Below are positions 1 through 4,240 of a stretch of DNA of 64,000 nt, one piece after another. Under the pieces are notes generated by a model. The model saw nothing but the letters and a program-made list of their open reading frames with translations. It did not search any database and was not told where the DNA came from. The position numbers and the translations under genes were made by a program. Every line of letters starts with the position of its first letter. Within the stretch, counting starts at the first letter, position 1. This stretch comes from Geopsychrobacter electrodiphilus DSM 16401 (lineage in GTDB: Bacteria; Desulfobacterota; Desulfuromonadia; Desulfuromonadales; Geopsychrobacteraceae), in NCBI RefSeq assembly GCF_000384395.1, contig NZ_ARWE01000001.1, positions 1 to 64,000 on the forward strand. Direction: 5' to 3'.

Positions 1-303
1 CGGAGTCGGAGTCGGAACCGGTACTGGGGTCGGAGTCGGAGTCGGCACTGGCACTGGAGTCGGAGGAGTGGTCACCGCATCATCATCCTCATCATCATTA
101 CTACGTTGATGCCGATTGTATCGGTGGGACGTTTGGTTATGACTGTCGCCTTGATCACTCCGGCTGTAGCGTGAAGAACGGTCGTGTGAAGAACTGTCAT
201 GGCCATCATGGCCATCGTACGCAAAACTGACTGCAAGCAGACAGGGAACAAGCAACGCGGCCATCCCTAAAACGGCAATAACTTTTTTGAATTCACGTAA
301 CAT
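1..303 (-). CDS. Secreted proline/threonine-linker protein, partial (C-terminus off window)
   Basis: Open for 101 codons from an ATG at 303 and still open at the left edge. GGAG lies about 10 nt upstream of the ATG. Residues 1-28 form a signal peptide (charged start, hydrophobic core, SFA end). Then come a His/Asp/Ser-rich stretch with DGHDGHD, an acidic patch (DDEDDD), and a Pro-Thr-Val linker of repeated PTP/PVP units that runs off the edge. Such linkers join exported domains to the cell surface. The functional domain is not in view, so no function is assigned. It is the only gene downstream of the three riboswitches, so its expression should follow a cyclic dinucleotide. Confidence 0.8.
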   Translation of the reverse strand, partial: MLREFKKVIAVLGMAALLVPCLLAVSFAYDGHDGHDSSSHDRSSRYSRSDQGDSHNQTSHRYNRHQRSNDDEDDDAVTTPPTPVPVPTPTPTPVPVPTPTP

Positions 304-391: not shown

Positions 392-469
392 TTCCTTGTA
401 ACTCCTAGACTTTCGGCGCGACAAACCTCCATTTCGCCTAAGGGTCTCGGTTTTTCCGTGTCCGGACAC

Positions 470-513
470 AAAAAAACCGGGACCGATTATCAGGAGATAC
501 TTCGGTAACCCGG
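470..513 (-). terminator. Intrinsic terminator of riboswitch unit A
   Basis: On the minus strand a CCGGGTTACCGA... / ...ATCGGTCCCGG hairpin is followed by seven T. Its 5' arm is the 3' end of aptamer A, so aptamer folding and termination should be mutually exclusive. Confidence 0.8.
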
Positions 514-572
514 CTGTCTCTGAGAGACCCTTGGCTTTCCGCCCCACCCTCGCGAGTGGTTTAGTATTGTCG
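503..572 (-). promoter_or_regulatory. GEMM-I riboswitch aptamer A (gene-proximal)
   Basis: Minus-strand RNA has the GEMM-I hallmarks: CTAAACCACTCGCGAGGGTGG stem-loop with the GNRA-like GCGA loop, then GGCGGAAAGCC, a second hairpin (GGGTCTCTCAGAGACAGCC) and the closing GGGTTACCGA. GEMM-I RNAs bind c-di-GMP, and a subset in Geobacter-like bacteria binds 3',3'-cGAMP. Which ligand applies here cannot be read by eye. The terminator overlap predicts an ON switch. Confidence 0.85.
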
Positions 573-602
573 TGTATCGTCAAAAATAGACGATGAGGGC
601 AC

Positions 603-648
603 AAAAAAACCGGCTCATCGAATATCTAACGATATTTCGGTGAGCCGG
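603..648 (-). terminator. Intrinsic terminator of riboswitch unit B
   Basis: Near-perfect hairpin (arms about 17 nt, GTTA loop) ending CCGG and followed by seven T on the minus strand. It shares sequence with the 3' end of aptamer B. Confidence 0.85.
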
Positions 649-708
649 CTGTCTCGGTGAGACCCTGTGGCTTTCTGCCCCATCCTCGCGGATGGTTTAG
701 TATTATCG
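638..708 (-). promoter_or_regulatory. GEMM-I riboswitch aptamer B (middle copy)
   Basis: Same architecture as copy A: AAACCATCCGCGAGGATGG stem-loop, GGCAGAAAGCC junction, GGGTCTCACCGAGACAGCC hairpin and closing CACCGAA. The first stem carries paired changes relative to copy A (CCATCC/GGATGG against CCACTC/GGGTGG), which supports a conserved RNA fold. Confidence 0.85.
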
Positions 709-738
709 TAATCGTCAGGAACCAGGCGGTGTAGGCAC

Positions 739-784
739 AAAAAAACCGGCTCACCGAATATCTGGCGATATTTCGGCAACCCGG
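739..784 (-). terminator. Intrinsic terminator of riboswitch unit C
   Basis: CCGGGTTGCCGAAATATC pairs with GATATTCGGTGAGCCGG around a GCCA loop, then seven T follow on the minus strand. It overlaps the aptamer C 3' end. Confidence 0.85.
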
Positions 785-845
785 CTATCTCAGAGAGACC
801 CTATAGGTTTTCCGCCCCACCCTTGCGAGTGGTTTAGTATTGTCG
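772..845 (-). promoter_or_regulatory. GEMM-I riboswitch aptamer C (promoter-proximal)
   Basis: First of the three copies to be transcribed. AAACCACTCGCAAGGGTGG loop, GGCGGAAAACC junction, GGGTCTCTCTGAGATAGCC hairpin and closing GGGTTGCCGA match the GEMM-I layout. RNA polymerase must pass all three switches to reach the gene. Confidence 0.85.
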
Positions 846-872
846 TTTATCTTCCCCGCTAAATTTTGTAGG

Positions 873-901
873 ACCATAAATTGAGGCAGGATTCATGTCA
901 A
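873..901 (-). promoter_or_regulatory. Sigma-70 promoter of the riboswitch transcript
   Basis: Minus strand: a perfect TTGACA (896-901), a 17-nt spacer and TATGGT (873-878). Transcription would begin just before aptamer C. Confidence 0.8.
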
Positions 902-3277: not shown

Positions 3278-3859
3278 TTATGTGTAGATAGCCCTTTTTC
3301 CGACAACCAAAAAATGCTTTTGTAATTCACTATAAATAGCTACATCTTTAAATCCGGCATTGATCATTTGTTGCTTAACATTTTCGGGCAAACATCTGAT
3401 TTTTGTAGGCGGCCCCTCAGGCATATCTTCCTTTTTCCAATCGGCAATAAAGATTTTTCCATCTGGTTTCAAGATCCTGTAGGCTTCTTCAACTGACAAT
3501 GAAGGGTTCTCTAATTCATGATGAAGGTTAATCATAAACACCAGGTCTGCAATTCCGTCTTCAAGTGGCACAGTATACTCTTCAGCCTTTACGGGAATAA
3601 TAGCGGGATACTTCGAAGACACATTTTCCTTCATCCAGTTGATCATTACTTCGGATAGGTCACAAGCATATATGGTCGAAGGTTTAAATTTTTGAAGAAA
3701 CGCAATACTGAAAAATGCTGTTCCAGCACCTATTTCAACAAAGATATCTGGTTTCTCCAGATGCAATTTTTCCCAAATATAATCAGGAGGAATATCTATC
3801 AACCTCTGGGGATCATTCAATTTGTGTAATTTTTTGGGATCAAATTTCTTTTCAATCAT
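3278..3859 (-). CDS. Class I SAM-dependent methyltransferase
   Basis: 193 residues from the ATG reading MIEKKFDPKK; the longer open frame starts at 3892 but lacks a better ribosome site. Motif I is VEIGAGTAFFSIAF (SAM binding), an acidic residue follows in YACDLSEVM, and DLVFMINLHHELENP plus LKPDGKIFIADWKKED match motifs IV-VI of UbiE/Methyltransf_11-like enzymes. The substrate is unknown. It probably forms a two-gene unit with the GFA protein. Confidence 0.85.
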   Translation of the reverse strand: MIEKKFDPKKLHKLNDPQRLIDIPPDYIWEKLHLEKPDIFVEIGAGTAFFSIAFLQKFKPSTIYACDLSEVMINWMKENVSSKYPAIIPVKAEEYTVPLEDGIADLVFMINLHHELENPSLSVEEAYRILKPDGKIFIADWKKEDMPEGPPTKIRCLPENVKQQMINAGFKDVAIYSELQKHFLVVGKRAIYT

Positions 3860-3879
3860 TGGTAAGACCTTTCTTACAG

Positions 3880-4240
3880 TCAACACAGCCAAGCAGCCAG
3901 GGCGTCGATCCCAGCCCCGGGCTCTCTAAGAACCGTGCGTGCGACTTTCACCGCCCACGGCTCAAGCCCTCGCTAAAGTCGTTTTGCGATCCGTTCGTAA
4001 TGTTTCCAACCTTGGACAGCGCCACTATGCGTTACCCTGACAAACTTGTTGCATCAAAGAGCAGCTGGACAGAAACCGGAAGTATTCCGACCAGGCCAAC
4101 CTCCCGTTTCGACATTAAATCGCTTGCGAGCTTTTTACAACCAGGGGATGTAGCGCTGGCGGGTTTTGGCGAATTTAAATAAGAACGCCTGCTTATGGCA
4201 GCGATGTGTGATGTGCCAAACGTAGCCCGGTACAAAATAG
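3880..4240 (-). other. Possible group II intron scrap
   Basis: The minus strand holds GAGCCGTGGGCGGTGAAAG then TCGCACGCACGGTTCTTAGAG (3905-3965). This kind of hairpin is often seen beside the maturase gene of bacterial group II introns. No maturase frame remains. The rest of the 3860-4417 interval has no recognisable gene. Confidence 0.35.

Follow-up and report, generated by a model that had tools for sequence, protein, structure and literature searches.

What does a cell stand to gain from placing three complete riboswitches of one class, one behind the other, ahead of a single gene? The question is raised by the first nine hundred nucleotides of the window, by which we mean the whole 64,000-nucleotide stretch analysed here, positions 1 to 64,000 of contig NZ_ARWE01000001.1 from Geopsychrobacter electrodiphilus DSM 16401. 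A preliminary description of this DNA had proposed three complete GEMM-I aptamers behind a single promoter, each fused to its own intrinsic terminator and all preceding one secreted protein. We consider it quite likely that the locus holds three GEMM-Ib ON switches in series on one transcript before a PgcA-like cytochrome gene.

Architecture of the array

A covariance search confirmed the three aptamers: all minus-strand copies exceed the RF01051 gathering score of 35 bits, at 46.0-52.8 bits (Table 1), and are thus members of GEMM-I, with one non-standard model pair in each of the three alignments. The proposed fusion of aptamer and terminator is likewise found in every unit, where the 3' end of the aptamer doubles as the 5' arm of a hairpin that is followed by seven U residues. 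These terminator calls rest on folding of fragments spanning the stems and on inspection, because a simple terminator scan listed, among the three, only part of terminator 1 (768-751). Candidate P1 helices can be drawn in unit 1 (GAUA/UAUC), unit 2 (CGAU/AUCG) and unit 3 (GAUAC/GUAUC); P1 is short, and in single-segment folds the drawn helix appears only in unit 3, with unit 2 adopting a shifted helix (ACGAUA/UAUCGU) and unit 1 folding without P1. By manual count, a 4-bp P1 lying 13 nt upstream of the core is possible in 49 of 58 units from arrays of the class, mostly as GAUA/UAUC and in G143 as GGUA/UACC. As the P1 flank and the terminator share the same 3' segment of the aptamer, the ligand-bound aptamer and the terminator would be mutually exclusive.

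The single promoter of the preliminary description corresponds to one promoter-like site, TTGACA-17-TATGGT, the sole one on the minus strand within 470-910, and from this one site we infer a single transcript. Promoter-like sites occur at a chance-level number across 4 kb (7 observed, 7.4 expected), and the best score at the internal units of the window is 6.5. In the arrays examined from the class (14 of 26 entries), the best site upstream of the first unit scores 8.5-11; 13 of these 14 arrays have TTGACA or TTGACT as the -35 element before the first unit, and in 13 the -10 element ends 30-41 nt before the first aptamer core, the distance in G010 being 19 nt. Internal units of the same arrays score 5.5-8.5 or have no site, G043 reaching 8.5 at both units.

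Table 1. Features of the array and its surroundings (window coordinates)
Feature	Position	Strand	Details
PgcA-like monohaem cytochrome c gene, 5' part	1..303	-	crosses contig end into G000:C1:4241437-4241730
SD-like GGAGG	426..430	-	after hairpin H, ~120 nt upstream of the gene
Hairpin H	443..484	-	formed by downstream sequence with the 3' arm and U-tract of terminator 3; loop CCGG; dG -24.5
Terminator 3	470..513	-	hairpin 513-477, 7-U tract 476-470; fragment fold dG -17.5
GEMM-I aptamer unit 3 (A20 type)	501..575	-	RF01051, 52.8 bits (cmscan)
Terminator 2	603..648	-	hairpin 648-610, 7-U tract 609-603; fragment fold dG -22.9
GEMM-I aptamer unit 2 (A20 type)	636..711	-	RF01051, 46.0 bits (cmscan)
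Terminator 1	739..784	-	hairpin 784-746, 7-U tract 745-739; fragment fold dG -23.8
GEMM-I aptamer unit 1 (A20 type)	772..848	-	RF01051, 46.4 bits (cmscan)
Promoter-like site TTGACA-17-TATGGT	873..901	-	10/12 consensus match

The controlled gene

The secreted protein expected downstream can now be specified as a PgcA-like cytochrome c. Joined across the contig end, the open reading frame yields a 198-aa protein in which an export signal (by eye) is accompanied by Pro-Thr/Pro-Val repeats and a single CSGCH haem motif; it so combines the features by which we recognise PgcA-like proteins (export signal, Pro-Thr/Pro-Ala-type repeats, CXXCH); its match to Pfam Cytochrome_CBB3, at 28.2 bits, lies barely above the cut-off of 27. 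The signal region contains one Cys (LLVPC), which presumably does not fit the usual lipobox. The following gene encodes an outer-membrane efflux protein that also carries a SPOR domain (Pfam), and the same order of array, linker cytochrome and efflux-like gene (by eye) is found in G043 and G135, but there with a doublet array. PgcA is described as an extracellular cytochrome that aids Geobacter sulfurreducens in the respiration of iron oxides, and its homologues as having PTx or PAx repeats and a variable number of haems, one in G. metallireducens (PMC5732950). G. sulfurreducens PgcA is described with a lipid attachment domain and with three haem motifs (PMC6456294, PMC5732950), whereas the window protein has a single haem motif. 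The window cytochrome probably has a role in extracellular electron transfer.

The ligand

All three window copies carry A at the pocket position aligned with G11 in the Rfam model, a residue that we take to be G20 of Vc2, and this A is the signature of GEMM-Ib. Because this A20 is present in every copy, the likely ligand of all three units is cyclic AMP-GMP (3',3'-cGAMP). Work on Geobacter reports that A20G in the Gmet_0970 GEMM-Ib switch shifts selectivity from cGAMP to c-di-GMP, the wild-type A20 reading cGAMP, that the pgcA switch is cGAMP-specific with a selectivity of about 1200-fold, and that deletion of gacA lowers the genes behind GEMM-Ib switches (PMC6456294). The host itself encodes a predicted Hypr-type GGDEF protein that could make the ligand: in L037 a GGDEF motif is combined with Ser at the Hypr position, the only such case among 23 inspected of 26 GGDEF domains. 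Among solved structures its best relative is 6d9m (E 2.3e-48), a diguanylate cyclase that is listed as an endolysin fusion and that we assume to be the Geobacter Hypr domain.

It is rather improbable that the three copies sense c-di-GMP instead, or both dinucleotides. Such a reading could appeal to the Rfam family name, c-di-GMP-I, and to the fact that RF01051 is the listed match of the copies, as well as to the company they keep. At least 15 RF01051 copies are present in the genome (150 of 316 candidates scored), and by-eye typing of 15 gave nine of the G20 type and six of the A20 type, namely the triple, a doublet (2869655/2869794) and a single unit (2561272). Moreover, a natural A-variant aptamer from Desulfobacca is described as having gained affinity for cAMP-GMP with that for c-di-GMP perhaps only slightly reduced (PMC9481103). 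Against this stand the A20 in all three window copies, the Hypr-type GGDEF in the genome and the strong selectivity reported for the pgcA switch, and the A20-type arrays of relatives, which often precede linker cytochromes.

Expected effect of three units in series

With cyclic AMP-GMP as the likely ligand, the array may work as follows. A single transcript would begin near 870 on the minus strand and then meet three cyclic AMP-GMP ON switches, in each of which the 3' end of the aptamer would pair either with its 5' flank (P1, ligand-bound) or with the 3' arm of the terminator (ligand-free). Without ligand, most polymerases would be halted at each terminator, so that the leak is multiplied three times, and with ligand, read-through of all three units would yield the mRNA of the secreted PgcA-like cytochrome c. 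The pilM cGAMP switch is described as an ON switch whose aptamer and terminator are mutually exclusive (PMC9262584).

The preliminary description had expected such a series to act like an AND gate or to suppress leak strongly, and had pointed to the steeper dose responses of tandem pairs in other riboswitch classes. A Boolean AND gate, which takes two different inputs, is ruled out by the same A20 pocket, and hence one likely ligand, in all copies; one ligand acting in series would make the array pseudo-cooperative. This term has been used for same-ligand series in a survey of tandem riboswitches (PMC9481103), which lists c-di-GMP-I doublets and triplets in numbers of 347 and 12, respectively. 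By sequence the window array appears to fit the term, with several complete switches for the same ligand, each with its own platform, on one transcript. To gauge steepness and leak, we treated the series as the product of equal, independent units with a leak of 0.05-0.3 and a maximum of 0.8-0.9. With three units, a leak of 0.1 falls to 0.001 and a maximum of 0.8 to 0.51, and the apparent Hill coefficient is only 1.11-1.24. Strong steepening is therefore unsupported by this simple model, in which leak suppression, at the cost of maximum output, would be the main effect.

A trend matching the product model is seen in published data on an array from Bacillus thuringiensis tested in E. coli, where single, double and triple constructs are reported to give 74, 25 and 8.4% output at low c-di-GMP and 90, 46 and 29% at raised c-di-GMP, equivalent to 1.2-, 1.8- and 3.4-fold induction (PMC4759541). 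As a counterpoint, even the triple was induced only 3.4-fold according to these data.

Relation to known systems

Triple c-di-GMP-I arrays are already known, and the window array is not unprecedented. Its closest described counterpart in layout, Bc3-5 of B. thuringiensis, likewise has three GEMM-I units, each with a terminator, acting as ON switches before one operon, and is reported to be more stringent than one or two units (PMC4759541). However, Bc3-5 is described there as a c-di-GMP switch of very similar copies ahead of cspABCDE, whereas the window units are of the A20 type, share 72-81% identity and precede a cytochrome gene in an unrelated bacterium. The window array also shares its architecture class with the 12 surveyed c-di-GMP-I triplets (PMC9481103), some of which may be of the A20 type and one of which may be this very locus. 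In ligand type and target the nearest systems are those of G. sulfurreducens: the omcAHG switch (GSU2885) is described as a tandem GEMM-Ib, likewise of the cGAMP type and before cytochrome genes, but with two units rather than three (PMC6456294), and the pgcA (GSU1761) switch GSUR3008 turns on a cytochrome with Pro-Thr repeats in response to cGAMP, as proposed here for the window array, but is described as one riboswitch against the three seen here (PMC6456294, PMC5732950). With one, two or three cGAMP-type switches preceding genes of one kind, these loci form a natural series in which the reason for stacking, leak control versus steepness, can be tested.

Related arrays and the origin of the triples

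Patterns that fix letters and spacing, and whose counts are lower bounds, found a strict two-unit array in at least 5 of 136 genomes of the order and at least 23 of 277 of the class. The triple pattern matched six of the 277 class genomes, and three of these (the window, G156 and G216) hold up when letters and context are inspected; the matches in G177, G180 and G238 were rejected as letters without GEMM-I stems. A contig scan for triples returned two records, corresponding to G156 and G216, and possibly left out the window's own record. All three real triples precede linker monohaem cytochromes, those of G156 and G216 with Pro-Thr/Pro-Ala linkers, although the G216 protein is longer and of another build. 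At L072 (G199), a third A20-type unit lies 227 nt past a doublet and may represent a wider-spaced triple. Contiguous c-di-GMP riboswitches are reported to be enriched in Thermodesulfobacteriota (PMC12452182).

As the preliminary description held, the window copies are not fresh duplicates: pairwise identity among them is 72-81%, whereas unit 1 reaches 92% with a unit found elsewhere in the genome. In a tree of the units, which is weak on such short sequences, the window copies are not sisters, whereas units 2 and 3 of G156 (support 0.90) and units 1 and 2 of G216 (0.93) are; this suggests that the three triples arose separately, and those of G156 and G216 look like local duplications. The window copies also differ at paired positions with pairing kept (C-G to U-A in P2; A-U, G-C or G-U in P3), as had been stated, and these compensated stems make the added claim that selection maintains the copies plausible but unproved.

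The repeats might instead be evolutionary slack, the product of tandem duplication without functional gain in which one unit does the work. The sister units within the G156 and G216 triples, the degenerate U-tract in one of three units of each (unit 1 in G156, unit 2 in G216) and the variable number of units among relatives would all suit such slack, but the window retains 7-U tracts, A20 and compensated stems in all three units despite their divergence, and all three triples, seemingly formed separately, precede the same kind of cytochrome gene. We therefore regard slack as very unlikely and favour a working series of three. Two further loci bear observations of their own: at L056 (G156), a second PgcA-like cytochrome ORF of 196 aa follows the first behind the triple, and L087 (G256) holds two A20 doublets, each with its own PgcA-like paralogue, and then a further unit, within ~2.4 kb.

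A hairpin beyond the last terminator

Terminator 3 of the window has a 3' arm and U-tract that are complementary to the sequence downstream and can fold with it into a hairpin (H); no such complementarity follows units 1 and 2. None of 200 shuffles was as stable (z -4.3), and z ranged from -2.2 to -6.6 over the six loci folded. An H-like arrangement with loop CCGG or CUGG occurs at ten last units in nine genomes; the sequence after H includes AAGGAGG in eight of these ten loci and GGAGG in the remaining two, lying well before the ORF. No conserved ORF that could encode a leader peptide follows the SD-like site among the loci compared. In a fold test with a threshold of 13 or more bridging pairs, PgcA-type last units qualified in 10 of 15 cases against 4 of 42 for other units, one unit being skipped (Fisher p ~5e-5, run with 41 other units); the grouping was set post hoc, G201 being classed by its N-terminus because the contig ends, and per-unit shuffles were often not clearly beaten. 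Only 1 of 12 non-PgcA last units reached the threshold. H is not universal, being absent or different at G135, G216 and G233.

A covariance model (R1) built from the ten H loci, the window included, matches the window at 486-421 with 63 bits, a score to which this locus itself contributed. At E <=0.01, R1 matches at least 25 of 277 genomes (19 candidates scored per genome). Of the 21 new places, 18 were read and 17 had enough upstream sequence; 16 of the 17 have an A20-type core 75-87 nt upstream, the other being the second place at L103, after an RF01051 match, and RF01051 scores above its cut-off upstream at 16 of the 17, a link to GEMM-I that is partly built in because the model includes the terminator arm. 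By eye, 10 of the 17 fold into the H shape. No Rfam family exceeded its gathering score at H in the 9 + 17 loci scanned. Some R1 loci precede genes other than cytochromes (by eye), encoding outer-membrane/SPOR-like proteins of the G157 type or regulator-like proteins (G163, G164, G168). L103 (G200) has two GEMM-I units 235 nt apart with an R1 match after each.

Judged from these alignments, H is a well-supported candidate for a conserved, possibly new RNA pairing. We consider it somewhat unlikely that H instead serves as a palindromic DNA site for a regulator, or results by chance from a U-tract next to purine-rich sequence. H is indeed palindromic, which is why R1 has matches on both strands at several loci, and 3'-side shuffles that preserve composition often pair similarly, 18 of 200 doing so in the window and 104 of 200 in G202. 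In the alignment of the ten loci, however, 4 of 15 pairs vary in both strands, the covariation score is reached by 3 of 500 shuffles, and slid controls pair far less. U-G also replaces U-A at several levels in these loci, and R1 finds nothing, even at E <=1, at the genome's 12 further GEMM-I copies.

If H forms in RNA, what might it do? At equilibrium without ligand, terminator 3 of the window holds its 3' arm with probability 0.94 against 0.03 for H, and H beats the terminator in 4 of 10 loci, the terminator winning in the other six. Once polymerase has read through, the U-tract of terminator 3 and its 3' arm could re-pair as H in the RNA, a fold that can coexist with P1 but excludes the terminator. 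Our tentative and still doubtful proposal is that H prevents the read-through transcript from folding into the terminator and protects the U-tract. STAB-SD stabilisers are a known kind of element. A further possible, likewise doubtful reading is a three-state platform in which the arm is shared by terminator and H and followed by the non-coding SD-like AAGGAGG, which would lock the ON fold, stabilise the RNA from its 5' side and couple ligand sensing to the stability of PgcA-type cytochrome mRNA. A limited literature search found no description of either a triple cGAMP array or H. Should H work in RNA, it would add a layer to a well-studied riboswitch class, with the terminator arm being re-used after read-through.

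Other elements in the genome

The A20 doublet at G000:C1:2869655-2869870 (L008, L009, L054), whose units are 94% identical, has no R1 match and precedes an 845-aa protein that is lipoprotein-like and gives several matches to cytochrome c. The single A20 switch (G000:C1:2561272-2561348; L014) is followed by an 80-aa ORF and then an ice-binding-like protein (PF11999). For five other copies (L001, L003, L004, L005), cmscan lists c-di-GMP-I-GGC (RF03167) rather than RF01051. Finally, the minus strand of the window at 3839-3965 contains a Group II intron match (44.2 bits, cut-off 40), which adjoins and partly overlaps a methyltransferase-like ORF at 3278-3892.
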